DNA of 64,000 nt, taken from Lysinibacillus irui. GTDB lineage: Bacteria > Bacillota > Bacilli > Bacillales_A > Planococcaceae. Position numbers and translations under genes: made by a program. Where the stretch lies: contig NZ_CP113528.1 in assembly GCF_028877475.1 (NCBI RefSeq), positions 62,001 through 126,000 on the forward strand, in the 5' to 3' direction. The notes below the pieces were generated by a model, which worked only from the letters and a program-made list of their open reading frames with translations, ran no database searches and was not told where the DNA came from. Positions within the stretch are counted from its first letter, which is position 1. Each line of letters starts with the position of its first letter. Below are positions 28,072-53,324 of this stretch, one piece after another.

Positions 28072-28169
28072 ATACAAAAACCCGCTTCAAAATGCCAATA
28101 GAAGTCATTGAAATAAACCATGACAATTGGTATTTTTGAAGCGGGTTCTTCCCGATAATGTATTTAGTT
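28072..28169 (-). ncRNA. Small structured RNA, family copy A
   Basis: Promoter on the minus strand: -35 TTGTAT (28199-28204), 17-bp spacer, -10 TAAGAT (28176-28181). After 21 bases comes the conserved motif CGGGAAGAACCCGCTTC (ending at 28154). The central stem is CCAAT/ATTGG and GTCAT/ATGAC. The RNA ends with GAAGCGGGTT and a T run, which pairs with the 5' motif as a terminator. Copies B, C and D share this plan. Confidence 0.65.
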
Positions 28170-28232
28170 GATTAAATCTTATCAAATATTTTAATATGAT
28201 ACAATCCTATTTATGAACAGTAACAAATATGG

Positions 28233-28310
28233 TATAATTCATTATTGTATCCATAAAAGGGCGACCAATTCTTAAGCAGTGGTGTTATAACACTACTGCT
28301 TTATTTTTCT
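28233..28310 (+). ncRNA. Short plus-strand transcript unit divergent from copy A
   Basis: A TATAAT box at 28233-28238 with a weak -35 (TTTATG, 17 bp upstream) precedes a hairpin (AAGCAGT..ACTGCTT, 28274-28301) followed by TTTATTTTTCT, which is a terminator. The implied RNA is about 60 nt and has no obvious reading frame. Its promoter is back to back with that of copy A. Confidence 0.4.
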
Positions 28311-28330
28311 TTAGATAACTGTTTACATCG

Positions 28331-28756
28331 TTACTCATTTTCGACATTTCTTTGTTCTACAATGTCTGAAATATTTATTACTCGTTCACCACATGAATCT
28401 AACCGAATATATCCTACGTTTTCTATGGCTTGAAAACCTTTTTCCTTGAATCTTTCATCTAATCGTATTCCCACGTTGTAAGAATATGATTTGAGATAAT
28501 CAATAGGTATTACATGAACGTTGGACATAAAAGGGACGCCTTCATTGATAGCTTTTAATGTACTAATATCCAAGTCATCTAACTTTTTGCCGCTAGCTAG
28601 TATCCCTTTTAATCTTTTCAGGAAGTTATTAATAAACTGATCAATTGATTCATACTCTACCTTTCCTTTTTGTGATTCTTTAAGATAATTTTTTAGCCGA
28701 TCTTCTAAATAAAATACCTCATATAAACGATTCGAAGGTATGCACTGGAATATCAA
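28331..28756 (-). CDS. Hypothetical protein, 141 residues
   Basis: A soluble protein with helical N-terminal part (LEDRLKNYLKESQ, IDQFINNFLKRLKGIL). The only available start is TTG 28756, inside the end of the preceding gene and without a clear ribosome site. The two frames may therefore be one gene split by a frameshift near 28720-28756. No domain recognised. Confidence 0.45.
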   Translation of the reverse strand: MIFQCIPSNRLYEVFYLEDRLKNYLKESQKGKVEYESIDQFINNFLKRLKGILASGKKLDDLDISTLKAINEGVPFMSNVHVIPIDYLKSYSYNVGIRLDERFKEKGFQAIENVGYIRLDSCGERVINISDIVEQRNVENE

Positions 28757-28913
28757 GCTTTAAATTTACATCATAATCCTGGTCATCTACTTCAAAATCT
28801 CCATACGCGTTTATTAAGACATTTTGTTTAAATATCGTAGAAACATAACAAATCTCTTTTGTTGTTCTGCTTTTAGTAGCTTTAGCTATTAAGTTCACTT
28901 TTTTAAAAATCAT
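28719..28913 (-). CDS. Hypothetical protein, 64 residues, possibly the front part of 28331-28756
   Basis: It begins MIFKKVNLIAKATKS and is rich in short strands, ending HTFESFI. The likely start is ATG 28913; a TTG at 28949 overlapping the previous stop is the alternative. It overlaps the next frame by 38 bases in a +1 register, so a ribosomal or mutational frameshift could join them. Confidence 0.4.
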   Translation of the reverse strand: MIFKKVNLIAKATKSRTTKEICYVSTIFKQNVLINAYGDFEVDDQDYDVNLKLDIPVHTFESFI

Positions 28914-28941
28914 TTTTATAATTCCATTCTTCTTTAGATTG

Positions 28942-30102
28942 TTATTCAAATAAATCTTTTACATTTGTCCAAGATTTATAATATTTCCTTAATGTCTGAC
29001 TACTTGGCAGCTTCAAATTCGGATTGAGTCTTCGATAATCATCCCAGCTTCTAACGGTTTTAAGATGGTTTTTATGTGGCTGCAGATACTCTTTAATACC
29101 AAGATTTTCAAAACCCTTATTTTTTACCTTAACTTCTAAAATTAATTTCAAACTGTTCCACCCGCCAAAAACTTTTCTTAATACCTGGCTACTCGGTAGC
29201 TCCAATTCTGGATGGTTCTTTCTATATTCATCCCACCCTCTAACCGTTACAAGATGGTCTTTATGTGACTGCAAAAGCACCATATAAGTATCTTTCTTGC
29301 TTTTATTCTTTCTTCTTCTTTTCACATCAAAACCCATAGCAAGTTTCAAGTTGGTCCATCCGTCAAAACAATTTTCTAAAGTTCTGGAATGAGGTAGGTT
29401 TAGATCAGGATGTTGTTGCCTATATTCATTCCAACAAGCAGTTGTTCTAAGGTATCGTTGGTAAGGTAATAAAAGATCTACATACTCATCTCGTTCTTGT
29501 TGAATGGTTTTAGCAATTCCAAATGCCTGCTCTAGTTTTTTCTTCGAGCCAAAATGACCACATAAAGTTTGCATACTAGGGAGTTTTAATTCTGGATGTT
29601 GTCTTCTATGTTCGTCCCATACTCCTTGAGTTTTAAGAAGTTCCTTATAGGGTTGTAATTTTTCAATATACTCAGCTGGAGATAATGCCACCAAATTTGT
29701 CAGTCTTATCACTTCTAATCCCATTGTCTGCTTCATACTATTCCAACTACCAAAATATCTAATGATCGTTTCTAAATTAGGGAGTTTTAATTCTGCGTGT
29801 TGCTTTCTGTATTCTTCCCATATCCATTGTGTTTGGATATAAGCTATATGGGGTTTTAATATTTCAATGTACTCCGCCATTTTCATTCTCTTAATTGTTT
29901 CTCTATTTAAACCAAAGGCACTTTTAACGTTATTCCAGTTCCCAAACGAATCAATCAACGTTTTACTACTTGGTAGCCTTAATGTAGAATGATTGGACCT
30001 AAATTCAGTCCACTTTTCAATTGTTATTAGATGTTCTCTATATCCATTCAATAAATTTACATACTCTTTTTCAGTTAATGCTCGATATGGCTTTAAGTTC
30101 AT
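28942..30102 (-). CDS. Protein of six tandem helical repeats (homing-endonuclease-associated-repeat-like)
   Basis: This 386-residue protein consists of six repeats of about 60 residues and little else. Each has Tyr-x3-Leu-x-Pro, a W-x-E-Y-R-x2-H-P pattern, L-x-L-P-S-x2-T-L, then F-G-x-W-N-x-L-K. This matches my memory of the repeat found beside HNH homing endonucleases, which forms helical DNA-binding units. No nuclease or other catalytic domain is present. A modular DNA-binding role is the best guess. The ATG lies 13 bases after GGAGG. Confidence 0.65.
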   Translation of the reverse strand: MNLKPYRALTEKEYVNLLNGYREHLITIEKWTEFRSNHSTLRLPSSKTLIDSFGNWNNVKSAFGLNRETIKRMKMAEYIEILKPHIAYIQTQWIWEEYRKQHAELKLPNLETIIRYFGSWNSMKQTMGLEVIRLTNLVALSPAEYIEKLQPYKELLKTQGVWDEHRRQHPELKLPSMQTLCGHFGSKKKLEQAFGIAKTIQQERDEYVDLLLPYQRYLRTTACWNEYRQQHPDLNLPHSRTLENCFDGWTNLKLAMGFDVKRRRKNKSKKDTYMVLLQSHKDHLVTVRGWDEYRKNHPELELPSSQVLRKVFGGWNSLKLILEVKVKNKGFENLGIKEYLQPHKNHLKTVRSWDDYRRLNPNLKLPSSQTLRKYYKSWTNVKDLFE

Positions 30103-30133
30103 TTTAAATATGAAGCCTCCTACTTTTCTTCAA

Positions 30134-30239
30134 ATAAATAAAAAAGAACCCGCTTCAAATGCTAACCCTGACCATGTTTAAAAAGACCATGGTTTAATGG
30201 TTTATTTGAAGCGGGTTCTTCCCGTTAATAGATTAAGTT
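30134..30239 (-). ncRNA. Small structured RNA, family copy B
   Basis: Promoter: -35 TTGTTT (30269-30274), 17-bp spacer, -10 TAAAAT (30246-30251). After 21 bases comes the conserved CGGGAAGAACCCGCTTC, then a central stem ACCATG/CATGGT, then the closing arm GAAGCGGGTTC and TTTTTT. It is close to copy C, including upstream promoter sequence (AATTACATTGTTT). Confidence 0.68.
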
Positions 30240-30345
30240 GTTGGTATTTTACCAAATATTTAATAAATAAACAATGTAATTAGGAACTTTATACATTGAT
30301 ATTTTTATATTTCTCATAACACTCCATTTGTTCACCAACTATTGC

Positions 30346-30681
30346 TTAGATTTTCTTTAACATCTGTTTTTCATTCTCTGTTAATGATTGAGTTATTGTA
30401 ATTGAGTGCTCAGATTTCTTGCGACCAAAATTTGAAACTTCTCTTAAAAATTTACCCATTTGATTGCCAATAGAAAATTGATAAAAAATCATCCCTTTAT
30501 TAGCTTTTTTAAACTCTTTTAATTGCCGATATGTCTTGCAATAAGCATGTTTTTCTCTAAATTCTAGATACTCACTCCACGCTTTTTTTTGTTCATCTTC
30601 TGTCATTGTAAGTAAATTAAACTCATCTGCATGAATTGGGAGATACTTTTTTTGATTCTTTTTTCTCTGACGTTTGTTCAA
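30346..30681 (-). CDS. Hypothetical protein, 111 residues
   Basis: A very basic soluble protein beginning MNKRQRKKNQKKYLP, with a helical centre. TTG start at 30681 follows AAAGGAG by seven bases. The composition suggests nucleic-acid binding, but no domain is recognised. Its transcript would run into the copy B RNA region downstream. Confidence 0.5.
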   Translation of the reverse strand: MNKRQRKKNQKKYLPIHADEFNLLTMTEDEQKKAWSEYLEFREKHAYCKTYRQLKEFKKANKGMIFYQFSIGNQMGKFLREVSNFGRKKSEHSITITQSLTENEKQMLKKI

Positions 30682-30798
30682 GTTAAAACTCCTTTTCTAT
30701 TTGGGTATTGTATGTAATCCGATCTGTTGTAACCTCTAGACTTCCAATTCGTTACTAAGTAGCATTAGAAACATGTAATTCTTGTGAAATTTGTAAAG

Positions 30799-31005
30799 TT
30801 AAATTACGATATTTCCAATACTCACTACAGCAACATATAGAATAAACGCAATAACACACAATGTAATCACTGGTACATAAGTTTTTTTATAACGTTTACG
30901 CTCAACCTCGTCATCCGCAGATTTCAAACTTAATATTAATAAAAGCAGGTTGATAAAAAAAATGACTCCTGTAATACTTAAAAAAACAAAGTCAATAAAC
31001 CCCAT
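30799..31005 (-). CDS. Small two-span membrane protein
   Basis: This 68-residue protein has two membrane spans (about residues 5-28 and 44-64) joined by a basic-acidic loop (KSADDEVERKRYKKT). ATG 31005 follows AAGGAG at ideal spacing. Function unknown. It opens a run of small membrane-protein genes on the minus strand up to about 35 kb. Confidence 0.55.
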   Translation of the reverse strand: MGFIDFVFLSITGVIFFINLLLLILSLKSADDEVERKRYKKTYVPVITLCVIAFILYVAVVSIGNIVI

Positions 31006-31153
31006 TATATATTCTCCTTCTGTTACGCACATATTTGTTCAAATAACTAGTTCTTAATGCATTTAGTATGGTAATCCTCCAATCCATAACTAGCCATAAA
31101 TTCAGTTGCTATGGACAGATATTCTTCCCCGCATCTTGCAAACCTAAAAATGT

Positions 31154-31510
31154 TCAGTTGTTACTTGTTGCATGATTACGAACTTCTAGTAATGACATAC
31201 CTTTTAGTGGATGATAGGAAAACGAATAAGATGAATTGATTTCTAGTTTATTGTATAGATGTTCAGTCACATCGTATTGCTTATTATTAATTCTTATTGT
31301 CCAATTTGGACCTTCACAATTTTCCTTAAGCATAACCATATTAAATGCTGGATCGAATGTCGGCTCCTGAGTGCATTTCTTTTCTTGAAAACTTTTCTGT
31401 TGTATAGTACCCTCTATGATTTGAGAGTCTTGAAAACTAAGCACAACTACATACAATACTGGAATTACCATAATAGCTAATATAACATAAAGAAACCTCA
31501 TTTCTCTCAT
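31154..31510 (-). CDS. Membrane-anchored protein with an extracytoplasmic domain
   Basis: This roughly 118-residue protein has one N-terminal span (LYVILAIMVIPVLYVVVLSF) and a small outside domain with two Cys residues (KKCTQEPT and ENCEGPNW) that could form a disulphide. The start is taken as ATG 31510 behind AAAGGAG; ATG 31531 overlaps that site. No known family recognised. Confidence 0.5.
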   Translation of the reverse strand: MREMRFLYVILAIMVIPVLYVVVLSFQDSQIIEGTIQQKSFQEKKCTQEPTFDPAFNMVMLKENCEGPNWTIRINNKQYDVTEHLYNKLEINSSYSFSYHPLKGMSLLEVRNHATSNN

Positions 31511-31582
31511 ATCTTCAAGCACTCCTTTCATCAGAAAATTTAGAGCATCTAATTCTCACTTTCTCATTATTCATTAAACTGT

Positions 31583-32239
31583 TCATATTATCTTTTTATA
31601 TTTGAAATGTGATTTACGATTTATTACCTGATGTTCCAACCAGTCACTATTCCAATGTGCCTTTAAAGTTGCTGCTAGTTGCGCTTTAGGGCTAGCATAA
31701 TAACACTGACAATGATTAAGTAGTTCATCAACAGTTACCCATTTATCAGGGTTACGTTGAAAGTACCGCTTCACATCCTCTATCATCAATGTATAGTCGC
31801 TTTGATAATCAAAATCTCCCATCCTATGACCACCAGAGATTGTGTCGTGATAGCCGTCTTTAATATACTTGCGAATATCCGCAGTTTTACGGTTCAATTT
31901 AGCAAACATCCCATAAGGTATCTCTGCATAATAGGTACTACCATGTTCTTTAATGACAATTAAACCAATTCCAAAGTGCTTTAGAAAATCTTGTATCAAC
32001 CGGGAGAAACCGCCTTTTTTACTAGGTACTGCAACAAATACATAATTCCCATGTCGCTTCGCTTCTACAGCTTGTTCTATAACTTTGAAGTTCAACATTT
32101 TTTTCATTTCTACAATGATGTTATGGGTTCCGATAACACCTACTACATCATATTTAAGCACTTCAGCATATACTTTTTCACAACCTATTTTATCTAGTAA
32201 AAGTTGCTTTACTGGCTCGAATAGATCGGATTCTTTCAC
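31583..32239 (-). CDS. Possible PD-(D/E)XK nuclease-fold protein
   Basis: In this 218-residue protein, residues 22-70 fit the restriction-like fold pattern: E in AEVLKYD, D followed by a strand, then I-I-V-E-M-K-K as the ExK, then a helix and V-F-V-A-V-P. The C-terminal part resembles a winged helix (WVTVDELLNHC). GTG 32239 overlaps the stop of the upstream gene (GTGA), so they are coupled. It may be a nuclease or an inactive relative; the assignment is by pattern only. Confidence 0.45.
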   Translation of the reverse strand: MKESDLFEPVKQLLLDKIGCEKVYAEVLKYDVVGVIGTHNIIVEMKKMLNFKVIEQAVEAKRHGNYVFVAVPSKKGGFSRLIQDFLKHFGIGLIVIKEHGSTYYAEIPYGMFAKLNRKTADIRKYIKDGYHDTISGGHRMGDFDYQSDYTLMIEDVKRYFQRNPDKWVTVDELLNHCQCYYASPKAQLAATLKAHWNSDWLEHQVINRKSHFKYKKII

Positions 32240-32553
32240 ATTATCCTCCTCCTGTTATAGGGTAACCAACCTAAGTCCCCTATCGATTCATCAGCTATGT
32301 ATCTACTGTTGTCTTCAATTACACAAATATATTCCTTATAGTCGATACTCAAAAAATATCCAACTAGTTGTCTAGTTCGTTGTATTCTAGGAAAAACGGG
32401 ATAAAACATGCCATATACATTTATCCTATAATAATGTTCTGCATCGGATGGACACATATCTGCTGTTAAATCTTTTTTATTTAAAGAAATCCCTCCACTA
32501 AGATCTTCTGTAAAATAACACTTAGTTATAGTTGTAGGCTTTATATTCAACAT
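32236..32553 (-). CDS. Hypothetical protein coupled to the nuclease-like gene
   Basis: This 105-residue soluble protein has many aromatic residues (YYRINVYGMFYPVFPRI) and an early E-D-L-S-G-G-I. ATG follows AGGAGATAGG. Its stop overlaps the GTG of 31583-32239, so the two products are probably made together and might interact. No domain recognised. Confidence 0.5.
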   Translation of the reverse strand: MLNIKPTTITKCYFTEDLSGGISLNKKDLTADMCPSDAEHYYRINVYGMFYPVFPRIQRTRQLVGYFLSIDYKEYICVIEDNSRYIADESIGDLGWLPYNRRRIM

Positions 32554-32660
32554 GAACCTATCTCCTCTTGCTCTTTATTGTCTTTGGTTGGATTTACCCC
32601 TTCACATTCCTAAACTCATCGTAATAAGGTGTAAGCTAAAAATTTAGCCTATTTATTTTG

Positions 32661-32972
32661 TCAAATAGTTAAATTAAAGTGAATTAATGTACATGTTATT
32701 CCACCATAGAAAGAGTAGGCTTGTAATGTTACAATTCCAAAGTCGAGTGCTGTACGCTTAGCAACCAATTTGATTTTTTTAAAGTAAAATTGATACATTA
32801 AGTTTAACAATGCCGCCCAAAAAGATAGAAACCATATAAGTCCAAATGGGAAATCAGTGGAAATATTTAACCAACCTATTAAATCTCCAATCATTGATAC
32901 GAGTAGTATTGAAGCGCAACTCAATAAAATAAATCTAGATAAAACATTTAATAAAATACTAAATTTATCCAT
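32661..32972 (-). CDS. Small multi-span membrane protein
   Basis: This roughly 103-residue protein has three or four hydrophobic segments. ATG 32972 follows GAGGG; the frame to 32984 lacks a proper site. Function unknown. Confidence 0.5.
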   Translation of the reverse strand: MDKFSILLNVLSRFILLSCASILLVSMIGDLIGWLNISTDFPFGLIWFLSFWAALLNLMYQFYFKKIKLVAKRTALDFGIVTLQAYSFYGGITCTLIHFNLTI

Positions 32973-33102
32973 TTTTACCCTCATTTCCGCCTATATATAA
33001 CATTAAAAGTGTTCAGTAAACAGGCATCTATAATATTCTACTGATGTAGATTCAATTATTTTGCTCTATTTGGTCATAATTTAATAGAATTCAGCAAATA
33101 GC

Positions 33103-33321
33103 TTAACTTGTAAAATCCATACCACTATCAAATGCTACATGTGCTATGTTATGAAACTGAGTTATATTCTCTCCTGTTTCTTCCTTTAATTTAACAACGA
33201 CTTTTATAAATGCCTGGCTATCACCAAAAACATGTTCCGTGTAACAATCTACGATATCAGCACAATCCGGAATGTTGTCTATTGCCTTGCATATCATTTC
33301 CTTAACTTTTTCTTTATCCAT
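33103..33321 (-). CDS. Hypothetical protein, 72 residues
   Basis: A small soluble acidic protein (MDKEKVKEMICKAIDNIPDC) with three Cys. ATG follows GGTGAGGAT. No family recognised; likely a genuine gene because of the start signal and clean frame. Confidence 0.5.
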   Translation of the reverse strand: MDKEKVKEMICKAIDNIPDCADIVDCYTEHVFGDSQAFIKVVVKLKEETGENITQFHNIAHVAFDSGMDFTS

Positions 33322-33394
33322 ATCCTCACCTACACTCTTCCTTTAAATTTTGTTCCTCACATTGTTCAGTAACATTATGGCTAAACAAATAAAC

Positions 33395-33553
33395 TCATAA
33401 TAAAAAAAATACTGCAAAACCCATACCTATTCCTATAAGCTCATCGAAAAATTTATATTTTTCTTTATCTACTCTCGCATTAAACATGATATTTAAACCA
33501 AAACCTAAAAGGGATAAAATTATTAAACCCCATGCAATATTTATTAAACTCAT
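33395..33553 (-). CDS. 52-residue two-span membrane protein
   Basis: ATG 33553 follows AGGAGG by nine bases. The peptide has an N-terminal span (IAWGLIILSLLGFGLNIMF), a charged loop (ARVDKEKYKFFDE) and a C-terminal span (IGIGMGFAVFFLL). Confidence 0.55.
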   Translation of the reverse strand: MSLINIAWGLIILSLLGFGLNIMFNARVDKEKYKFFDELIGIGMGFAVFFLL

Positions 33554-33643
33554 TTTTTATACCTCCTGAAAAATTCCCTTCAATTATTTAAAATCTTAAT
33601 CTTTCATTTAATTGATCTTCCTTTCCTCACCATTGTCCTCTTT

Positions 33644-33751
33644 CTATGTATTAATTGAGTAAATTAAAGACGATACAATTGCGACTCCAATACCACAAAT
33701 TAATAACAGAAATATTGTAACGATTAACGTATGCCTTTCAAACACATTCAT
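33644..33751 (-). CDS. 35-residue single-span membrane peptide
   Basis: ATG 33751 lies nine bases after AGGGGG and opens a 35-codon frame: a short polar start (MNVFERHT) and one long hydrophobic segment. It is one of several tiny membrane peptides in this region. Confidence 0.45.
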   Translation of the reverse strand: MNVFERHTLIVTIFLLLICGIGVAIVSSLIYSINT

Positions 33752-33875
33752 TGATTTAATGCCCCCTGGAGATTTTCTTTCAATTATTTAGTTCATCTGT
33801 GATGGTCTTGACAAAAGATCAACCTCTTATAGGTCGCCCTTAACATGAACATTAACTTTTTGTGCTCTAAATTGT

Positions 33876-34562
33876 TTAATTTTCTTCTTTGTAAAACGGA
33901 TCGTAATCTGATTTGCTGGTTAAATCCAAGTTTTTTCGAGATTCTATGATTCTTTGATAATCTTGTTTAGATATTTTCTCTTCATTTAAATAATTTTTAT
34001 CTAACGAATTCATATGATTCTCCATTGCACCTTCTAATTGTTTGTTTATTGTAGCTAGCTCTTTGGCCATCTTTATGTGAAGATGCATTAAAACCCTTGA
34101 TTCACCTTTAGGCTGCTTTTTAAGATCTTCAACTAGTCTTTGCAGCAGCTGATCATTCTGTAGAAAAATAAACGACACTTCTTTTGAAACACCAAATTCA
34201 TTAAGATAAGCGATTGACTCTGTATATGTTTTATAATTGAAGGCAATAATAGAGGAAATTTCCGGACACTTTTCTTCAATAGTTTTTTTATCCCAGTTCT
34301 TAAGACTCTCTCTTAAATTTATATTTACTTTCTCAAAGTGCTTCCATTCAGGAAGCTGTTTTATAACCTGTTTATTTATTTTTGGTAGCACTTCAATTGA
34401 GGGTGAAGGGCTATGCCCCCTTGAAACGCCTATAATCATAAAGCCGGAGGCAAAGAGAGATAGTGTAATAATTGGTAATACAGCAAACAAGAACAGATCA
34501 ATAAATAGCTCAACTAGTTCCATTCCATCCCCTGATGTTAGTTCGAATAGTAATAGAAACAT
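33876..34562 (-). CDS. Membrane-anchored helical protein, 228 residues
   Basis: One or two N-terminal spans (about residues 15-45) precede a long cytoplasmic helical domain (residues 60-228) rich in K, E and L, with no enzyme motif. ATG 34562 follows GAGGTTG; a second ATG with AGGGGA lies at residue 14. Function unknown. The layout resembles anchors or scaffold proteins rather than transporters. Confidence 0.5.
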   Translation of the reverse strand: MFLLLFELTSGDGMELVELFIDLFLFAVLPIITLSLFASGFMIIGVSRGHSPSPSIEVLPKINKQVIKQLPEWKHFEKVNINLRESLKNWDKKTIEEKCPEISSIIAFNYKTYTESIAYLNEFGVSKEVSFIFLQNDQLLQRLVEDLKKQPKGESRVLMHLHIKMAKELATINKQLEGAMENHMNSLDKNYLNEEKISKQDYQRIIESRKNLDLTSKSDYDPFYKEEN

Positions 34563-34639
34563 TTATTTTCAACCTCTCTATTATTTTCTTGGTATGACAT
34601 AATCTAATTATTTGTATACACAGTATGCTACTACTTTAT

Positions 34640-34945
34640 TTATTCATTATGGTCAATTACCTCTATATGTGCCTCGTCCGTATTCTGCTTCTTTGCACTT
34701 TCATACATTTTCCATATTATTTCGAAACCATTTACAATATCTTCTCTAAAATGCTCAATGACATAATTCTTTATTTCTAAATAATTAGAGCTATTTCTAG
34801 GGTATTTTTTATCTCTAACTATTTGGTTTGCAAAGAAGTACATTTGCTCACTTTCTAATGCATGATTACGTACTTCTCTTTGTCTATTCCTTACATGTTC
34901 ATGCCTAAAGGTAATGGCAAATTCAAAAAATGTCATCCAACCCAC
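34640..34945 (-). CDS. Hypothetical protein, 101 residues
   Basis: A soluble, strongly charged protein with GTG start at 34945 after AAAGGAGATTAATT. It lies just upstream of the membrane-anchored helical protein gene on the same strand and may be co-transcribed with it. No domain recognised. Confidence 0.5.
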   Translation of the reverse strand: MGWMTFFEFAITFRHEHVRNRQREVRNHALESEQMYFFANQIVRDKKYPRNSSNYLEIKNYVIEHFREDIVNGFEIIWKMYESAKKQNTDEAHIEVIDHNE

Positions 34946-35020: not shown

Positions 35021-35263
35021 TTAATCGTTAGTATCCTCGATGGGTTCGTGTTTTCTTCTCATTCTTTTTACTAATTCAACCCCGAATTCGAGTGATATTA
35101 AGAGCGTCTCACGTTCTTTTGTGGATAGCGGTATTTGTTCTAAAGTCAAATATTTGGAATTATTCAAGCTATGCTTTAATATATCTACCTTTCTGCCATA
35201 ACACGTGGCTAACGTTAATTCTTCTATACTCTCATCCGTTCTTCCTAAAAGATTCTTGTTCAT
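35021..35263 (-). CDS. Hypothetical protein, 80 residues
   Basis: A small soluble helical protein; its C-terminal part is basic then acidic (KRMRRKHEPIEDTND). ATG 35263 follows GGGAAGGAA. It is the most upstream gene of the minus-strand small-gene cluster that begins after RNA copy C. Confidence 0.5.
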   Translation of the reverse strand: MNKNLLGRTDESIEELTLATCYGRKVDILKHSLNNSKYLTLEQIPLSTKERETLLISLEFGVELVKRMRRKHEPIEDTND

Positions 35264-35435: not shown

Positions 35436-35534
35436 AATAAAAAACCCGCTTCAAATTCCATTTTGACCATGTTTAAAAAGACCATGGTTATATGGTTTAT
35501 TTGAAGCGGGTTCTTCCCGGCAATTAATTAAGTT
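35436..35534 (-). ncRNA. Small structured RNA, family copy C
   Basis: Promoter: -35 TTGTTT (35564-35569), 17-bp spacer, -10 TAGAAT (35541-35546). After 21 bases comes CGGGAAGAACCCGCTTC (ending at 35519), then the central stem ACCATG/CATGGT, then GAAGCGGGTT with TTTTTT. It points towards the small-gene cluster but terminates before it, and the plus-strand gene at 35613 lies on its other side. Confidence 0.68.
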
Positions 35535-35612
35535 GTAACTATTCTACCAAATTGGTTAAAATAAAACAATGTAATTAGAAAATAAATACATATTTTTAAG
35601 GGGGATGTTTTG

Positions 35613-36021: not shown

Positions 36022-36783
36022 TTAACTCCAAGGATCTCTAAGTCTATATTTTGACCTCCATTGGTCCATATCAACTTGATTTTTTAAATGATCATCATAC
36101 AAATCCCGATAAGCCTGAATCGTCCTTGCAGATCCAGGTATTGCTGGATATTTCTCATTCTCTACCAAAAAAATGTGGTTTAATAGAGCATAATAAACTA
36201 CAGTTGTAAAAATTTCTCCTTTATTCCAGTCAACGTCTATTTCGTAATCAACTTGATTTTCCAAAACAATTTCATATACATCTAAATCGAGAGAACAGTT
36301 TTGTTGAATCTCTAATAAACTTCTCCAATGTGAATCAACACCCTTGTTTATATCGTCCTGAATAAGCGGTAGAAAGAGCTCTTCAAAAAAAGGATTCCAT
36401 TTGTGAATAATACCTCTTTCCTCATAAAGTAATGCAATTAGCTTTACTTTTTTTCCATTCATGTTATCAAAAATATTCTCTGCAATAAAAAAACTATGAA
36501 AGTAATCTCCTTTGCTAAATATTCCATCTAATATAGTAAATTGACCGAGTTCTCGGTAATCCACACGATCTTTACTCTTCGCAGTTACTAACATATATTC
36601 CCCTTCACTTAGAAACATTGGGATATGTCTCTCTGTAAGATCTGGCGTGGCATACATATCAATTGTCACCATATCAAAGCAATTGCCTAGGTTCTTACTG
36701 AATCCTTCCGGTAAACGCCAACCAAAATCAATCATTTTAGAAACCATTTTGCAGCTCCTATCACTCTTTTTAGATTTACTCAT
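36022..36783 (-). CDS. Unknown protein translationally coupled to TnpB
   Basis: This soluble 253-residue protein has no motif I know. The start ATG 36783 overlaps the TAA of the tnpB gene (TAATG), so ribosomes finishing TnpB would restart here. Transposon-borne tnpB genes normally end at the element's right end with the guide-RNA scaffold, so a tightly coupled downstream gene is unusual. It could be a partner or inhibitor of TnpB, or a host gene fused into its transcript. Length and clean frame indicate a real protein. Confidence 0.6.
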   Translation of the reverse strand: MSKSKKSDRSCKMVSKMIDFGWRLPEGFSKNLGNCFDMVTIDMYATPDLTERHIPMFLSEGEYMLVTAKSKDRVDYRELGQFTILDGIFSKGDYFHSFFIAENIFDNMNGKKVKLIALLYEERGIIHKWNPFFEELFLPLIQDDINKGVDSHWRSLLEIQQNCSLDLDVYEIVLENQVDYEIDVDWNKGEIFTTVVYYALLNHIFLVENEKYPAIPGSARTIQAYRDLYDDHLKNQVDMDQWRSKYRLRDPWS

Positions 36784-38102
36784 TACACTAAATATTCTTC
36801 CACATGTTTTACGTTCTTCTCTTGCGCTTTCAATTGATCCTCTATAATTTTCTCAATATCCTTTATGGCAATGTTACGAGCTGCATTTAAGTCCGCATTC
36901 GTCTCATGCCCACAATTTAGACATTTAAAATCAGCTTGCGTTGGCCGCCATATTTCCTTTTTGACATCCTTATGAATAAATCCGCATTTATTGCAACGCT
37001 TAGATGTATAATTAGGCTTCACTTTTACAACCTTGATACCATGTTCTTTGGCCTTGTCTATAATTTTTTGTTGCAAACTATAAAACGTCCAATCTTTTAA
37101 AAAAGCATTGTCTGTTGTTATACCTGATAAATCTTCTATCTGGATGGTTCCGCATTCATTTTTTAACGCTTCATTCACTATAAAGCGCGACCACGTATGG
37201 TTTTTTGTCTCTCGATAGTTGTGAATTTTGTTAGAAATTGCATCAACCGGCTTCATTAACTTTTTTCGGCCACTTCCTCGACTACCTTCTCCAGCCCATT
37301 TACGTGAACGTTGCAAACGCTTTTTGCGGTCATTAATTTGCGCTACAAAATCACTTACTTCTTTAGCATCCCCTACATATTGGCGGTAAAATTTATCCTC
37401 ATTAATAGCAAGTACTGCTGGCACAGCGACTCCAATATCAACGCCCATTATTCGATTTTCATCTAATACTTTCTCAGCTTCTTTTTCAAATTTATATGTA
37501 AGCAAAAGATAAAATTTGTTTTTCCGTTTGTAGATACGGCTATCACTCATTTTGTACTCCCCATTAATGATGCGATCCAAAATTTCGTATGCACCATTCC
37601 CCGTAATTAACGTCACTACGGATTGACCTTTGCAATTTCGCTCTTTTGCTCCTTCTTTTGATAATAGGGACAGCTTGGCATTGTATGTTTTATTGTCTAA
37701 CTTGGTTATGCCTTTTATTTGAGATACTCGTATAGGGAATGAACCATTACGACGGTAAATCTGAATGGACTGTTCACCTTTCAAAATCTTCACTTTATCA
37801 TTTTTAAATTTTGTGATTGCTTCATTAACAGCTGAATCGACTATAGAAGATGATACGAATGATCCCATTGCTTTTAAAAAACCATAAACATCAGGCGACA
37901 ATGTTTTCCCTATGATTTCCTTCTCTTTGGGATATTCGCCAAATCGCTCATTATAAGAAAATGAAAATTGTTGCCAATCATAAGCCGCTGTTGTAGCTCG
38001 GTTCTTGATTAACCAAATAGCATGTTGAATGTCGCCTAAGAGATTATAAAGCTCTTTATCATACTTTATTTCATACTTCATTGTTTTTACAATTTTAATC
38101 AT
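36783..38102 (-). CDS. tnpB: TnpB-type RNA-guided nuclease (IS605/IS1341 OrfB family)
   Basis: This 439-residue protein has an intact RuvC active site: Asp222 (MGVDIGVA), Glu323 (IQIEDLSG) and Asp404 (TNADLNAARN), with a zinc finger between (Cys370, Cys373, Cys394, Cys397). TnpB proteins cut DNA guided by a transposon-encoded omega RNA. No tnpA transposase is nearby. ATG 38102 follows GAGGGG. The catalytic residues are all present, so it is not a nuclease-dead repressor. Its end overlaps the next gene, unlike standalone IS1341-type elements. Confidence 0.9.
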   Translation of the reverse strand: MIKIVKTMKYEIKYDKELYNLLGDIQHAIWLIKNRATTAAYDWQQFSFSYNERFGEYPKEKEIIGKTLSPDVYGFLKAMGSFVSSSIVDSAVNEAITKFKNDKVKILKGEQSIQIYRRNGSFPIRVSQIKGITKLDNKTYNAKLSLLSKEGAKERNCKGQSVVTLITGNGAYEILDRIINGEYKMSDSRIYKRKNKFYLLLTYKFEKEAEKVLDENRIMGVDIGVAVPAVLAINEDKFYRQYVGDAKEVSDFVAQINDRKKRLQRSRKWAGEGSRGSGRKKLMKPVDAISNKIHNYRETKNHTWSRFIVNEALKNECGTIQIEDLSGITTDNAFLKDWTFYSLQQKIIDKAKEHGIKVVKVKPNYTSKRCNKCGFIHKDVKKEIWRPTQADFKCLNCGHETNADLNAARNIAIKDIEKIIEDQLKAQEKNVKHVEEYLV

Positions 38103-46984: not shown

Positions 46985-46986
46985 TT

Positions 46987-48327
46987 TTATTCCAACCCTT
47001 CTAATAACTCTTGTAAATCTTTATCTATTAGTTCAGCATGTATAGGTTTGAACAGTTGTTGTTTTGGTTTTAATTTTTTTGAAGGTTTAAGTTGTTTATT
47101 ATATGCTTTCTCTCTTCGCTCCATCTGCTCTAACATGTGTTCATGCGCTGCCCGATGTTGCGCTTCATCAAAATGATGTGCATACACATGCATAGTGTCA
47201 GGATTTTTCCACTTCATATATTGGATTAATTCATTTTTCCGTTGCTGCACTTCAGCATCATTTTGGGATAACCTATAAATCTCTCGTAATCGAGAAGTGA
47301 CAAACCAATGCCTTGCTTTATGTGGATTTAAACATAGTTTATTTTCTTTCATTGCTCGGTTCCAGTGATAGTACCAAGCATGATAAGTGAATGGCGTCCC
47401 ATTGGTGGATAAAAAGAGAGCAGCTTCATCTGGTAATTCATGAAAATCCAAATGATCTTTATCCACGGCCTTTCTTTCAGTTTCAATGTAATGAAATAAG
47501 CGTTTCACCGTATCTTTACTAAAGCGTAGAAACTTTATTTTCCGACCATAACTCCCTTTATTAAATGTCATAACTTCTTGATGACTTTTACGCTGTCGAT
47601 AATCTCCAACCTTTAGTTCGATAATTTCAGAGGCTCTTGCCCCCGTCTCAAATAACATTCTTGCGATAATCATTTCACGTTGTGACCAATGGACGTGTTG
47701 TCCAGCTTTATACACTTGATAGGGTAGATGAATGTCATCAATAATTTGTGGTTGCCATTCATCATTGATGATTTTGAAATAGGAATCGGTTACCCTGCGA
47801 TGAGCCATTGGTTCTTCTGTTCCAGCAATGGAAGCTATTCGAGGTTTGTCATTTCTAACACCTCTTACTTCTTCTTTGTAAGGTTGCAAGATAGCTTGCG
47901 TATCAATGAAAGGATTATGATAGGGATATTGATTTAAACAAATCATCGATTTATAAAATGACTTGAGTGCTGATAGAAAACGGCTTATTGTGTTCGGGCT
48001 TTTATTGGTTAATTTCACAAAACGAAAGGTATCTTTATCATGAATCTTACAATACATTTTTTCCATTAAATACGCTTCAACAGCTACACGAATTTTCTCT
48101 TCAGAATCATTCCATTGCACACGTTGTCCCTGAAAGTTACTACTTGTCTCTAACCATGAAAAAAAGGGAAGTAAGCTATTTAAATAAGATATAGCAGTAC
48201 TTTTACTCACTCGCCCTAAACAATCATGATAATAATCCGTTAATGGTAAGAATGGTTCCTGCGCTTTAAATACTAATAATTGATATCTGCTTTTAACATG
48301 TTTTGGGCAATAGTCATACCAATACAA
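46987..48327 (-). CDS. tnpA: Tn554 TnpA-like tyrosine recombinase
   Basis: This 446-residue recombinase has an N-terminal SAM-like domain (about residues 25-130) and a catalytic domain with Arg231 (TGARASEII), H336-K-A-R339-H340 and Tyr382 (MHVYAHH). Start TTG 48327 follows GAGGGGG by about eight bases. It is first of the three recombinase genes, the Tn554 order. Cargo in such elements lies beyond tnpC, which here is the candidate defence cluster. Confidence 0.85.
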   Translation of the reverse strand: MYWYDYCPKHVKSRYQLLVFKAQEPFLPLTDYYHDCLGRVSKSTAISYLNSLLPFFSWLETSSNFQGQRVQWNDSEEKIRVAVEAYLMEKMYCKIHDKDTFRFVKLTNKSPNTISRFLSALKSFYKSMICLNQYPYHNPFIDTQAILQPYKEEVRGVRNDKPRIASIAGTEEPMAHRRVTDSYFKIINDEWQPQIIDDIHLPYQVYKAGQHVHWSQREMIIARMLFETGARASEIIELKVGDYRQRKSHQEVMTFNKGSYGRKIKFLRFSKDTVKRLFHYIETERKAVDKDHLDFHELPDEAALFLSTNGTPFTYHAWYYHWNRAMKENKLCLNPHKARHWFVTSRLREIYRLSQNDAEVQQRKNELIQYMKWKNPDTMHVYAHHFDEAQHRAAHEHMLEQMERREKAYNKQLKPSKKLKPKQQLFKPIHAELIDKDLQELLEGLE

Positions 48328-48426
48328 AATAGGTGCCCCCTCATAAAATAAGAATCTTGCTTACTTGTGGGTAATGCTAAATCAATACATATTTTCCTTA
48401 TTCTTTAGATTAATGTAATAAAAATA

Positions 48427-48470
48427 AAAATGTACACCACTAAAAAGTCCTTTTTAGTAATGTACATTTT
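48427..48470 (-). terminator. Long hairpin terminator
   Basis: The arms AAAATGTACA and TGTACATTTT with inner ACTAAAAAG/CTTTTTAGT make a stem of almost 20 bp, followed on the minus strand by TTATTTTTATT. It would end the transcript of the large secreted protein gene and lies upstream of tnpA. Confidence 0.75.
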
Positions 48471-48572
48471 ATAATATGTGTAACATATTAAACAAGTATA
48501 GGTGAAATCAATCACCTTGTACCATTACTTGTCCTTAATATTACAGGTTATCCTAAGCTTTTCATACTCTTA

Positions 48573-51500
48573 TTAGTGGGTAACACTCGATTTGAAATCG
48601 TCTAATGATGATTGATCCGCATGATAGAAGATAACGTCGCCTTCTTGTAGATTGAAGGTATTACCATAACCATCGACAAAGCTATTCTTAAATCCTTCCA
48701 TATTCGTCCACTGACTCATATAGTGAGCTTTGTAGTAGGATAGATACGGATTATTAAGATCGCCCTCATTAATCGTTTCTATGTCGAAATTCACGATAAT
48801 GTATCCATCTTTTAAGAACAATGGATGATTTTCATTCAGCATCCCTACACGTCCTGCTTCTTGAACATTCGCATTCTTTGGCACTACGTATAGTTTAGCG
48901 GGCAGACTGTACTCTCCATACCACGTTTGTTCTTTAGTAACGATTTCTTTTGGTGGAACCATCGTATTTGAAGGAACTTGATTTGCTAAAGGTCCTCTAT
49001 AGGTACGAAGCTTCCAATTTTGAATTTGCCATCCATAAGGTCCTGTTTGCACAGGTTCTTTGGACATATGCTTGACGTAATAACGTGCAAACGCAGTTTC
49101 ATAATACTGACTAGTAGTTTCCTTTAAGTTAAAACGATCACCAAAATTGTAATAGTGCAGCGCGTTATTTGTAATTTCATTTTTTGGAACGTTTCGCATT
49201 GTTTCATTCAACGAAACAGTACGATACGTCTTATCTTTATCAGAGCCGATTTTAACAAAGTAGTTGTTATCATCATGATAATAAAGATCTACAGCTTGAC
49301 GTTTCTTTCCATCACTTGTTACATGATAAAAGGTCGGTTTAATACGGATAGCATCATTAATACTTTCCATATCACCTTTTGTTTTCATATCAAACTTAAA
49401 TTTATAACCAGTTTTGACAGCTACGTTTTGGAATCCATTCGGATGGCTACCATGTCGTACTGGTAAAACAAATGGATTTGAATTACCACGTTTTGCTCCA
49501 TCGATGCCGTTCAATCCAACCCAATATGAATTATTAGTTGGTGTTACGCCATCTCCCTGACGGAAAACAGACTTCCAATTGTAGTCGGAAATATCTGTCA
49601 CATGGAAATCATATAAACGGCCCACTACATCGACTTGTATAGAATCAATAGCTACGTGAGCAGCTGATAAACTACCTGCTGGTGGAACGTTAAACGCTGG
49701 GTTTGGAATCGTAATGTTTGCATGATGCTCAGACCCACCAAAGTCTCCACCTGGTAGTGCATTAATCGCAAACGCTCTAAACTGGATTGTGTATTGTTTT
49801 TCAGGCACCCAAACGGGTAAGAAAAACTCAACTGTTTCCATATCAACAGGAACGGAAATCCATGTATTAGCTGGATAAAATGCTTGTTTTGTTGCGGTAT
49901 ACACATCAAACGGGAACATAACTTGTTTCATCTTAATGTATTTTGAGTAATCGCGGTTGCCATAGCCAGGAATATTGCGGTGTTGCCCTCCTGTTGGCAA
50001 TGACACAGTAAATGGTCTATCTAGTATAAACGCATGTCGATCTTGGTCAGGGTTTGGTGGTGTAGAACGTAACGGCGGCTTAATGCGTTGGTCATGTTCC
50101 TTATCGTCAGATGCCCTAGAGTATATTACGACAGGCGTATGTACCGTTACTGGATTCACATCAAACGGGAAATCCTTTGCTGAAGCGGAGCCATCGATTG
50201 AGAATACAGGCTCATAAAATACTTTCCCAGTACTTGGTGATTGCCAGTAGTTTGTCTTTAATGGATCTATCAGTAGCCCTCTCGCAGTCATTTGTATCAT
50301 GCCAGGGGGAGGTACATCTGAAGGTGTTGGACCATCAGTTGTTGCGCGTGTATCATCCATAATCACAGAGCCTTTAAATTCAGCACGATCATTTTCGACT
50401 TCATTCTCTCCAATTTCATCTTCTGCAGCTGCTTTAGCCTCGTCTGTAATATCAGGTACACTTGGTTTGGAACTGCCTCCATCGATTGTTTCAGGAGGTA
50501 ATTCAATATCAGGACATTCAGGCGGAAATACGTGATCTTCCACGTTGTCGCTATGCTTACCATTAGCTGTAACATTCGTCATCGCATCGATGCTTAAAAA
50601 CTCACCTGGTAGTGCGTAATTCGTAAATTCTGAGTGCGTTAGTTTCCAAATGTTGTACTTAATTATCTCCCAATAAGAAAATGGTCTTTCGATACCACTT
50701 ACAGCAACCTTTTTGGTTACAGTTTCCTCATGGTCGGTATACGTCACATTCCCTTTTGAATCGGTCTTGGAGGTTGTCCATGTTAGCGTAAACTCTTTAG
50801 ATGCATTCACATTGTTAAATACCGTTTTACCTTTCTTCTGAACAAAATCTTGCTCGTAAAGGTATTCTTCACTTTGAGCATCTGCTCGTAGATATTCACT
50901 TGACGGAATCCCTTGTACTACATCAAATTCACCACTATCGGAACTGATGCTGCCCGACGGAGAAGGTTGAATTAGACTACCTTTTTGTGAGGCACCGTCT
51001 CCCTCTAATAGAAATTCAATAGAACAGGCTTCGATAGGTTCAGGGTCTGTTTCCTCTTCTTCATCATCGATGTAACCCTTCCATTGAATCCACATTTTTA
51101 TTGGGTAGGCAACGTGGTATTTAGGATTATAATTTGGAGGGCCATTATCACCATACTGATCTACAATAGATGGCGTATAATCTATCCCTGTTTCAACTAT
51201 TATTTCGAGTACATCTATTGTATACATACGTTTACTCTTACCTAAGTAATTATAACCATTACTCTTATCGTCCCATTGTGGATTGGTTCCTTCGATACCT
51301 TTTACCTTCGAAGCCGGATATGTGTCATCTGGGTCATTAACATTATGAAAAGTATCTGGCATTGGATATTGACGCAGGTCCAATCGAGCATGGACGTCTT
51401 TATTTTTAGGATAAGGATTCTTAACTGTACCCGCATTAGTTGTTTGTACTGGTCCATTCCAGTTCTCAGCTCTAAAATCTCCGTTATCAATTTGCCACCA

Positions 51501-51647
51501 GTGTACGATAGGATTTATCTCTCTTTTTTCTGTGATAACTTCTATTCTTTTTGCAGATACTGGAGTCGTTCCACCCATATTGAACCAAAAAATAAAAATA
51601 GATAAAAAAGAAATAATAAGCATTATTTCTTTTCTATAAACACTCAC
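48573..51647 (-). CDS. Large secreted protein of unknown function
   Basis: This 1024-residue protein has a signal peptide (residues 1-32, ending T-P-V-S-A-K). The mature part is beta-rich, with a Pro-rich acidic linker region (about 365-440) and no catalytic motif I can see. Long proteins of this kind follow SLH proteins in Bacillales plasmids (DUF5704 from memory, uncertain). GTG 51647 has AAAGGAG 13 bases upstream, a long spacing. It follows the SLH gene by 23 bases and is probably co-expressed at the cell surface. Confidence 0.6.
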   Translation of the reverse strand: MSVYRKEIMLIISFLSIFIFWFNMGGTTPVSAKRIEVITEKREINPIVHWWQIDNGDFRAENWNGPVQTTNAGTVKNPYPKNKDVHARLDLRQYPMPDTFHNVNDPDDTYPASKVKGIEGTNPQWDDKSNGYNYLGKSKRMYTIDVLEIIVETGIDYTPSIVDQYGDNGPPNYNPKYHVAYPIKMWIQWKGYIDDEEEETDPEPIEACSIEFLLEGDGASQKGSLIQPSPSGSISSDSGEFDVVQGIPSSEYLRADAQSEEYLYEQDFVQKKGKTVFNNVNASKEFTLTWTTSKTDSKGNVTYTDHEETVTKKVAVSGIERPFSYWEIIKYNIWKLTHSEFTNYALPGEFLSIDAMTNVTANGKHSDNVEDHVFPPECPDIELPPETIDGGSSKPSVPDITDEAKAAAEDEIGENEVENDRAEFKGSVIMDDTRATTDGPTPSDVPPPGMIQMTARGLLIDPLKTNYWQSPSTGKVFYEPVFSIDGSASAKDFPFDVNPVTVHTPVVIYSRASDDKEHDQRIKPPLRSTPPNPDQDRHAFILDRPFTVSLPTGGQHRNIPGYGNRDYSKYIKMKQVMFPFDVYTATKQAFYPANTWISVPVDMETVEFFLPVWVPEKQYTIQFRAFAINALPGGDFGGSEHHANITIPNPAFNVPPAGSLSAAHVAIDSIQVDVVGRLYDFHVTDISDYNWKSVFRQGDGVTPTNNSYWVGLNGIDGAKRGNSNPFVLPVRHGSHPNGFQNVAVKTGYKFKFDMKTKGDMESINDAIRIKPTFYHVTSDGKKRQAVDLYYHDDNNYFVKIGSDKDKTYRTVSLNETMRNVPKNEITNNALHYYNFGDRFNLKETTSQYYETAFARYYVKHMSKEPVQTGPYGWQIQNWKLRTYRGPLANQVPSNTMVPPKEIVTKEQTWYGEYSLPAKLYVVPKNANVQEAGRVGMLNENHPLFLKDGYIIVNFDIETINEGDLNNPYLSYYKAHYMSQWTNMEGFKNSFVDGYGNTFNLQEGDVIFYHADQSSLDDFKSSVTH

Positions 51648-51670
51648 TATAGTAAGTCAACTCCTTTTAT

Positions 51671-52918
51671 TTACGGTATTTCATAATAATAAACACTTTT
51701 ATCATCCGCTCTACCTGTAAGGTTTATGCCTGAACGGTTTAATACTCCCTGTGATGCCCAATATCGATATTTTTCACCTTTTTTAAATACATTTTCATGA
51801 ACATTTTTAGGTGTCGAAATATTAAATTGCTCGCTTTTACCTTTGTCAACTCGCATTGGCGATGCATAGCCTTCTAAAGCACCATCGGCTATACCATTTA
51901 AACTGACATCGCGACTTGGGACTAAAGTGTATTCAATAAAAGCTGTATAAAAGTTTTTATTTAATGAAAATGGTTGTGCAACATCATCAAAGAACATATC
52001 TTTATAGATTCCTTTTGATTTAGAACCAGTTGTATCTACGAAAATTGCTCTTTCAATTGTCGCTACTCCTTTATTCACATGAGTATGTTGTTTTCCAAGA
52101 ACACCTTCATATCCTGTATATTTCGTTTTTTGAAACTTAGAGATTGTTAAGATATTTGTTCCTGTTTCGGCAACCTCAAGCAACTCCTGTAATCCTGTAA
52201 AGTCAGATGGTGCTTTCTTCATTGTATCCATGAAGCGGATAAGGATAGTTGCTACCTCAGCACGAGTTGTATTGCCATTTGGTTTGAATGTGAAATCTTT
52301 ATAGCCTGACAGTAATCCAGTACCAAGAGCTACGCCGATGTACGGAAGATCCTTTTTATTTACTCCACCTTTATAAAATTCAGGAATTGGGATAAGTGTA
52401 AGACTTGAATTTGCCATTGTCTCAATGGCTTTGGCATAGTCAGGATTTGCATGTGCTAGACCATTCGCTAACCAACGAGACATTTCACCGCGAGTCATCG
52501 CTTTGTTTGGCTCAAACTTGTTATTAGCAAAATCGCTAGCTTGAATGAATCCGACTGCTAATCCCTCTTGAATAGCTTCATTTGCCCAGTGTGATGAATT
52601 CACATCTGTAAATTTAGATGGTGTACGATCTTTTCCATCAAATACGCGTGATAGGAATGTCGCAAACTCTGCACGTGTTACTTGAGCCGATGGTTTATAT
52701 GTACCATCACTATAACCTGCAACAAGACCTTTCTCTGCTACTTGCTTAATAGATTCATATGCCCAATGCGATTTAGGGACATCTTTAAATGTCGTTTTCG
52801 TTGCTGCTTCTGCAACCGAATAAGTAGCAGGAATAGCGTAAACAGGCGTCGCTACAGATAGAGCCAAAGTCGCAAGTAATAATTTATTAGATTTCTTTCT
52901 AAAAGTACCACGTTTCAT
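51671..52918 (-). CDS. S-layer homology (SLH) domain surface protein
   Basis: This 415-residue protein has a signal peptide (to about A-E-A, residue 39) and three SLH domains (about residues 43-90, 100-155 and 185-235) with motifs FKDVPKSHWAYESI and GYSDGTYKPSAQVTRAEFA. SLH domains bind pyruvylated secondary cell-wall polymers. The C-terminal half (about 250-415) is a separate beta-rich domain of unknown role. It is the first gene of a unit with the large secreted protein. Confidence 0.92.
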   Translation of the reverse strand: MKRGTFRKKSNKLLLATLALSVATPVYAIPATYSVAEAATKTTFKDVPKSHWAYESIKQVAEKGLVAGYSDGTYKPSAQVTRAEFATFLSRVFDGKDRTPSKFTDVNSSHWANEAIQEGLAVGFIQASDFANNKFEPNKAMTRGEMSRWLANGLAHANPDYAKAIETMANSSLTLIPIPEFYKGGVNKKDLPYIGVALGTGLLSGYKDFTFKPNGNTTRAEVATILIRFMDTMKKAPSDFTGLQELLEVAETGTNILTISKFQKTKYTGYEGVLGKQHTHVNKGVATIERAIFVDTTGSKSKGIYKDMFFDDVAQPFSLNKNFYTAFIEYTLVPSRDVSLNGIADGALEGYASPMRVDKGKSEQFNISTPKNVHENVFKKGEKYRYWASQGVLNRSGINLTGRADDKSVYYYEIP

Positions 52919-53011
52919 AATTTTTCCCTCCGAATGAATTAATTTTTGTTATACTCTAATTTTACCATTTTTAGAGGATGTATCAAATTTCCGAAGGACA
53001 ATAGCAAGTGT

Positions 53012-53128
53012 TTATGTTTTACCTGCCAATTTCACTTCTTGCAATAAGTCCATATTGCGTTTTGGATACGATGTTGTTAAATGGATCTCCAACCTTGATT
53101 CTTGTACCCGTTGCTGTTTATTGAGCAT
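53012..53128 (-). CDS. 38-residue basic peptide
   Basis: ATG 53128 lies ten bases after GAGGAGG and opens a 38-codon frame: a charged soluble peptide (QQRVQESRLEIHLTTSYPKR). No family known. It sits between RNA copy D and the SLH gene. Good start signal, otherwise unsupported. Confidence 0.4.
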   Translation of the reverse strand: MLNKQQRVQESRLEIHLTTSYPKRNMDLLQEVKLAGKT

Positions 53129-53162
53129 CTTTTCGATTCCTCCTCTCTGAAATGGATTTTAA

Positions 53163-53268
53163 TAAAAAGAAAGAACCCGCTTCAAAACACTAAGAATGAG
53201 CCATAACAAAGTAGTTATGACGAATAGTGATTTTTGAAGCGGGTTCTTCCCGACTTATTAATTTCGAT
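53163..53268 (-). ncRNA. Small structured RNA, family copy D
   Basis: Promoter: -35 TTGAAG (53298-53303), 17-bp spacer, -10 TAAAAT (53275-53280). After 22 bases comes CGGGAAGAACCCGCTTC, then central stems CACTA/TAGTG and CATAAC/GTTATG, different in sequence from copies A-C but paired in the same place, then GAAGCGGGTTCTTTC. It lies about 18 kb from the nearest other copy, outside the small-gene cluster. Confidence 0.62.
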
Positions 53269-53324
53269 AGTCATATTTTAGCAAACCCATTTTATTTCTT
53301 CAAGAGAAATATTCATGCACTTCC

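Follow-up and report, generated by a model that had tools for sequence, protein, structure and literature searches.

AAGNA-looped hairpins that share a strand with an intrinsic terminator form a class of putative 5′ leader attenuators on Lysinibacillus irui and related Bacillales plasmids

The nearest described systems that we found for the elements reported here, 5′ leaders in which a small hairpin shares a strand with an intrinsic terminator, are LoaP/dfn and conAn. The elements were studied in a 64,000-nt stretch of Lysinibacillus irui DNA (RefSeq assembly GCF_028877475.1, contig NZ_CP113528.1; hereafter the window). In the Bacillus velezensis LoaP/dfn system, a small 5′-leader hairpin before an intrinsic terminator is required for read-through (PMC12691694), and the window elements likewise carry a small leader hairpin ahead of an intrinsic terminator. 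The dfn hairpin has a UNCG-type tetraloop, is shown as separate from its terminator and depends on LoaP, a NusG paralogue, whereas here the loop is AAGNA, a hairpin strand is common to the terminator and the host has one NusG-family gene. The conAn system of pLS20-type plasmids is an RNA-dependent antitermination system on Gram-positive conjugative plasmids (PMC8955417). It is a single system at the start of the conjugation operon, whereas here about 20 leaders precede different genes on one 251-kb contig (C2).

In the ribonucleic antiterminator (RAT) of the BglG/LicT type a small hairpin overlaps the 5′ arm of the leader terminator and is mutually exclusive with the terminator. The present hairpin also overlaps the terminator 5′ arm, but the score with the Rfam model bglG-cis-reg (RF03530), whose cut-off is 80, is 19.7 bits. 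The boxB hairpin of the lambda nut site has a short stem and a purine-rich pentaloop with a varying fourth base (GAAGA or GAAAA), and has no strand in common with a terminator. The elements resemble boxB in the short stem, the purine-rich pentaloop and the variable fourth base, and differ from it in the loop letters and in the re-use of a hairpin strand by the terminator; no N-like peptide turned up here, and no search aimed at one was made. ANTAR targets consist of two neighbouring hexaloop hairpins and, compared with this description, the nascent folds of the elements have one 5′ hairpin with a pentaloop.

A further point of comparison is a survey of attenuator regulons from 2010, whose authors we take to be Naville and Gautheret. 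Its main text describes 5′ terminators that form related sets in front of genes that are not homologous, the clusters having been assembled by 5′ sequence similarity from 8 Bacillus and 13 enterobacterial species (PMC2965389); the words plasmid, pilus and competence are absent from that main text. A description of the class was not found in searches of the open-licence literature, in which the 2010 survey was checked by word searches of its main text, and the words terminator, hairpin and stem-loop are absent from the main text of a paper on toxin regulation in Bacillus anthracis. Comparison with Rfam, which the first-pass annotation of the window had proposed as a check, yielded no family that reaches its cut-off: Rfam 15 at curated cut-offs gave no match in the window or in 140 kb of the plasmid contig, none was obtained at E ≤ 0.01 in seven loci with the GGAAGCACC pattern, and lax searches with three elements gave only hairpin-like matches below the cut-off.

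The window corresponds to positions 62001-126000 of C2. The genome comprises two contigs (4.7 Mb), the other (C1, 4.45 Mb) being the chromosome, and from its size and its resemblance to plasmid records C2 appears to be a plasmid. The first-pass annotation had described four minus-strand copies (A to D), and these are indeed found where it placed them, with the hexamers and exact 17-bp spacers that it gave (Table 1); the promoter is conserved along with the 5′ motif, the central stem and the terminator. The promoters are sigma-A-like, although the -35 of copy D is poor, and the distance from the -10 to CGGG (CGGGAAGAACCCGCTTC) is 21, 21, 21 and 22 nt in A, B, C and D, respectively. With up to one mismatch, GAACCCGCTTC occurs nine times in the window compared with 0.38 expected from shuffles, eight of the nine matches being the two arms of A-D, and the folding energies of A-D against their own shuffles give z values of -6.3 to -10.0. 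One further exact motif copy, E, lies on the chromosome at C1:1153869, and the outer sequence of copies A-E is nearly identical. The promoter of E looks decayed by eye; in this region (C1:1153853; locus L001, 1485-1884) E precedes a decayed GGDEF gene fragment, and the two resemble a leader-gene unit in decay.

The same annotation regarded A-D as a family of about 100-nt RNAs limited to four copies. The copies instead belong, as a subfamily, to a larger class of 5′ leaders, with about 20 elements on C2, many more on related Bacillales plasmids and others on large contigs of a second family. The class follows a simple rule: a promoter; a hairpin X-AAGNA-X′ with a G-C closing pair; and an intrinsic terminator, built from the loop and X′ as its 5′ arm and from a copy of X that ends in a T run as its 3′ arm, usually followed by a ribosome-binding site (RBS) and a gene. 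X varies by locus, and the pairing and the AAGNA loop stay. Since paired strands change their letters in concert from locus to locus, what is conserved is the architecture of the switch and the AAGNA loop, not the CGGGAAGAACCCG string. Nor were four copies the full set in the window, where a fifth member of the class had been overlooked because its stem letters differ.

Scans were run on a plasmid set of 951,575 bp (C2, the Lysinibacillus plasmids pMHQ (CP110805.1) and pG5.M11b_1 (NZ_CP118715.1), and nine other plasmid regions) and on a 400-kb chromosome sample. A scan for terminators with a 5′ hairpin sharing the 5′ arm, and with any loop of 4-7 nt, found such a hairpin at 61 of 276 terminators in the plasmid set, 52 of the 61 having AAGNA and none a UNCG loop among the loops listed. 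On C2 the figures were 19 of 78 terminators, 15 of them AAGNA, and in the chromosome sample 9 of 111, where the one AAGNA hairpin is copy E. An upstream promoter score of at least 9 was obtained for 29/52 AAGNA elements compared with 33/215 plasmid terminators lacking a 5′ hairpin. A stricter descriptor matched 22 sites on C2, 13 on pMHQ and 12 on pG5.M11b_1, compared with none in the reversed sequences of all three; the nine other plasmid regions gave 18 matches (one when reversed) and the chromosome sample two, namely E and a weak, coding-like one. Twenty of the C2 matches were kept, those dropped being 16976 (the opposite strand of the palindromic terminator at 17018) and 224614 (coding-like by eye), and two C2 members, 13851 and 241423, lie beyond the descriptor set. 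A pattern for a single stem type matched seven times on C2 and not at all on the 4.45-Mb contig, its reversed form giving no match.

In 45 distinct elements the closing pair was GC throughout, although the scan did not force it. Stem positions 2-4 each show three pair types (position 2: GC 32, CG 11, AT 2), and the fourth loop base (C 26, A 9, T 8, G 2) is matched by the terminator arm in all 42 elements with a located arm; stem and arm pairing in this set is largely imposed by the search. For a test less dependent on such requirements, GG/CC and the terminator were fixed in the pattern and the outer stem was left free, which gave 77 places (60 fetched and 17 search loci). At least two further stem pairs were present in 52 of these, compared with a mean of 17.5 and a maximum of 27 in 500 shuffles of the partners, and at least three in 38 (mean 9.9, maximum 18); the shuffles overstate independence, since orthologues account for many of the 77 places. 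Among the places below the cut-off several have a bulged stem by eye, and others (for example L204, L209 and L212) have no stem.

Covariation, which the first-pass annotation had claimed, is real but partial within the CGGG subfamily. In 15 aligned copies, two-sided changes were seen in 3 of 6 pairs of the inner stem and in 1 of 4 pairs of the 5′ hairpin (CG in 12 copies, UA in two, UG in one), and in none of the 16 pairs of the outer terminator stem; one copy disrupts another pair of the 5′ hairpin. In G027 and G031 a TGGG/CCCA double change keeps the 5′ hairpin at the cost of one terminator mismatch. A covariance model matched 8 of 32 genus genomes at E ≤ 0.001, with clear copies besides those of the own genome in G011, G022, G027, G028 and G031; in G009 and G004 the model matched a plain terminator that lacks the 5′ motif. 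The family-wide search matched 6 of 261 genomes, all of one genus, and the matches are confined to Lysinibacillus because the other subfamilies have different letters. One A-type and one D-type copy each are present on pMHQ and pG5.M11b_1, and a blastn search with 201 nt around copy B matched only two plasmids, phage matches having E values of 0.2-0.6.

The genes behind the elements recur. All six D-type copies (window, G011, G027, G031 and two plasmids) precede the same S-layer homology gene, and the A-type copies and two relatives (window, two plasmids, G028 and E) precede a GGDEF gene or its remnant. Some related genes that lack the CGGG element have leaders with other stems: GAGG-AAGCA-CCTC lies in front of the S-layer gene on two L. 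sphaericus plasmids and of a Sporosarcina GGDEF gene, and CAAG-AAGCA-CTTG in front of a Cytobacillus GGDEF gene, with both GGDEF leaders passing the descriptor. On pG5.M11b_1 all 12 elements lie before a same-strand coding sequence, 10 of them within 80 nt, compared with 48 of 134 listed features; the genes include those for a coupling protein, an S1-domain protein, TrbC/VirB2, a Tad-like operon, leucine-rich, S-layer, GGDEF and EAL proteins, and a nuclease. On C2 an RBS and an open reading frame (ORF) occur within 60 nt of 12 of the 20 kept elements.

These observations suggest that each element probably acts in cis as a transcription attenuator, placed in the 5′ leader of the downstream gene or operon. 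The two competing folds of the first-pass annotation are borne out by prediction: the 5′ hairpin and the terminator share the CCCG strand, giving two mutually exclusive folds in a 5′ leader, one of them an intrinsic terminator. When the 3′ arm is withheld, the nascent 5′ part is predicted to form the small hairpin in 14 of 15 copies (in C as GGG/CCC). RNA polymerase would make the X/X′ hairpin, the putative antiterminator, first; the emerging 3′ arm would then invade through the free sequence beside X′ and cause termination. A trans factor, such as an RNA-binding protein, or a polymerase-bound conformation may grip the GAAGNAC loop, hold X′ and let transcription through, and operons with a common loop would then switch together.

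Several observations weigh against this reading. The 5′ hairpin has a mean of -4.3 kcal/mol compared with -28.5 for the whole element; the terminator being far more stable, termination would be the default and a helper would be needed to keep the 5′ hairpin. In the G011 copy the 5′ hairpin is disrupted and the terminator intact. An unrelated 81-aa ORF lies between copy A and the GGDEF gene, and behind copy D come a short ORF and a second promoter-like site. For eight of the 20 kept C2 elements an RBS with an ORF is absent from the next 60 nt, the ORF being farther off or small, and element 17018 has none within 600 nt. Such a leader was absent from the upstream DNA viewed at 7 of 9 S-layer relatives outside the D type and at both relatives of the 81-aa ORF, and the two L. 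sphaericus S-layer leaders fail the descriptor because the arm pairs with X′ and not with the loop. The orthology among the 77 places also belongs here, as does the fact that the scans were devised after the elements had been seen. No trans factor emerged from the candidates considered: the plasmid S1-domain protein, as a universal factor, turned up in 5 of the 50 genomes searched and, of the 23 f3 genomes among these (a second family, see below; all 23 pattern carriers), in only one, and a NusG paralogue is opposed by the single PF02357 match of this genome (G000), which is chromosomal.

Among other explanations, a multi-copy family of small RNAs acting in trans, in which every copy would yield its own RNA of about 95 nt for pairing with other transcripts, is rather unlikely. 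It would account for the own promoter and terminator, the several copies per replicon, the near identity of the outer sequence of A-E and the promoter-like site that belongs to the S-layer gene behind D. However, the most conserved letters are buried in a strong stem, with no obvious free seed, and vary by locus in the wider class, and the elements mostly precede same-strand genes, the same ones across plasmids. That X lies outside the terminator pairing and yet matches X′ far above shuffled partners argues against plain promoter-proximal terminators (insulators) with an A-rich flank, where the 5′ hairpin would be an A-tract by-product or protect the mRNA 5′ end. AAGNA pairs with the start of the U-tract, which would be enough alone to conserve it, and the terminator fold is dominant; the scarcity of AAGNA hairpins among chromosome-sample terminators (1/111) nevertheless makes insulators unlikely.

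It is very improbable that CGGG-N5-CCCG serves a repressor as a DNA operator close behind the promoter, since the half-site letters vary between loci of one plasmid, conservation falls instead on the AAGNA spacer and a dyad strand recurs in the terminator, even though the dyad is near the promoter and the TGGG/CCCA changes preserve it. Least probable of all is a small mobile or repeat element spread by copying: the long identical inverted-repeat flanks of A-E would fit, but the wider class is alike in structure and not in sequence, and gene order persists along with the promoter and its spacing.

Table 1 Elements of the class and associated genes in the window (window coordinates).
Feature	Position	Strand	Remarks
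Copy A promoter	28176..28204	-	-35 TTGTAT, 17 bp, -10 TAAGAT (extended TG)
Copy A 5′ hairpin	28142..28154	-	CGGG-AAGAA-CCCG, putative antiterminator
Copy A terminator and inner stem	28072..28150	-	CCCG of 5′ arm common to 5′ hairpin
Copy B promoter	30246..30274	-	TTGTTT, 17 bp, TAAAAT
Copy B 5′ hairpin	30212..30224	-	CGGG-AAGAA-CCCG
Copy B terminator and inner stem	30134..30220	-	
Copy C promoter	35541..35569	-	TTGTTT, 17 bp, TAGAAT
Copy C 5′ hairpin and overlapping terminator	35436..35519	-	
Copy D promoter	53275..53303	-	TTGAAG, 17 bp, TAAAAT
Copy D 5′ hairpin and overlapping terminator	53163..53252	-	
Fifth class member	24968..25025	-	ATTCGG-AAGCA-CCGAAT hairpin overlapping terminator
81-aa ORF directly behind copy A	27766..28011	-	No such ORF between element and GGDEF on two related plasmids
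GGDEF (diguanylate cyclase-like) gene behind copy A	26714..27703	-	Same order on CP110805.1 and NZ_CP118715.1
386-aa gene behind copy B	28942..30102	-	Homing-endonuclease-associated (HNH) repeats
80-aa ORF behind copy C	35021..35263	-	169 nt behind the copy; no Pfam match
S-layer homology gene behind copy D	51671..52918	-	
38-aa ORF between copy D and S-layer gene	53012-53128		

The gene for the S1-domain protein (PF00575) has relatives in 36 plasmid records. In nine surroundings viewed, a coupling-protein gene lies directly upstream in six and a replication-relaxation gene directly downstream in six. The S1-domain gene is itself behind the switch: an element with one of several stem sequences is directly upstream in 10 of the 12 plasmids viewed (C2, pMHQ and pG5.M11b_1 included); those of P. 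peoriae and Brevibacillus marinus have none. Two of these S1 leaders, from Sporosarcina and P. polymyxa, escaped the descriptor and were identified by eye, the loop of the latter being GAGCA. A NusG-family gene was found at least once in all 32 genomes searched, and more than once only in G545, G363 and G489. CsrA, whose motif is GGA, was rejected as a candidate, that motif being missing in the GCG and CAAG stems.

Across 398 genomes of the taxonomic class, the pattern GGAAGYACC, a match to which is not always an element, is present in 52, among them every one of the 36 genomes of family f3 (probably Paenibacillaceae), where many matches are on multi-megabase contigs; the reversed pattern gave five matches in total. 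Among the proteins encoded downstream in f3 are a CpaE-like ATPase (CbiA, below the Pfam cut-off), a DUF4131 protein, a ChlI protein (weak stem) and an HRDC protein, of which we take the DUF4131 protein to be ComEC-like and the ChlI protein ComM-like. In G560, of another family, a CpaB-like protein (RcpC, below the cut-off) is downstream. In viral contigs, the descriptor was met by 4 of 11 with the GGAAGCACC pattern (L232, L233, L235 and L238) and, among the matches listed, by none of 120 with the short CGGG-type motif. The member on IMGVR_UViG_2517572151_000001 (L233 9547, minus strand), ATCGG-AAGCA-CCGAT, lies 72 nt before an 80-aa ORF with an RBS.

A wider and more tentative possibility, which we consider somewhat doubtful, is an antitermination regulon throughout the Bacillales, in which one conserved host factor or RNA polymerase would recognise the boxB-like GAAGNAC hairpin and open pilus, competence-like, conjugation and cyclic-di-GMP operons together, on the chromosomes of one family and, about 20 at a time, on large conjugation-type plasmids. 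If so, large Bacillales plasmids would keep many operons behind the same RNA gate, and one signal could open conjugation, pilus, surface-layer and cyclic-di-GMP genes together. The rule X-AAGNA-X′ ... X-T run is a simple means of finding such a regulon in any genome, and would offer a direct route to the missing factor.

Some neighbouring features were also observed. On the Rossellomorea plasmid CP128836.1 (L367 6132-6826), an AAGAAG-AAGTA-CTTCTT member stands before a PilZ-domain gene, which adds to the cyclic-di-GMP theme. A relative of the 81-aa ORF (L048, G008:C3, upstream of 1501) has a 3′ terminator-arm remnant, TTTTTGAAGAGGGTTTTTGTATTGGA, without an intact 5′ hairpin, and another terminator-like hairpin precedes the remnant. 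The S-layer homology gene of the window is adjoined by a gene for a 1024-aa DUF5704 protein (48573-51647, minus strand), and the two genes also stand side by side on plasmids of L. sphaericus and L. fusiformis. Elsewhere (L045, G030:C1, upstream of 1501) a CRISPR-like array with the repeat unit GTTTTTCATTAACTAAGTGGAATATAAAT and spacers of about 35-38 nt directly precedes an S-layer-like gene. Upstream of copy C, at 36022-38102 (minus strand), lies a TnpB-like gene (439 aa, with a Cas12f1-like TNB domain) together with a touching 253-aa ORF that follows it and has no Pfam match.

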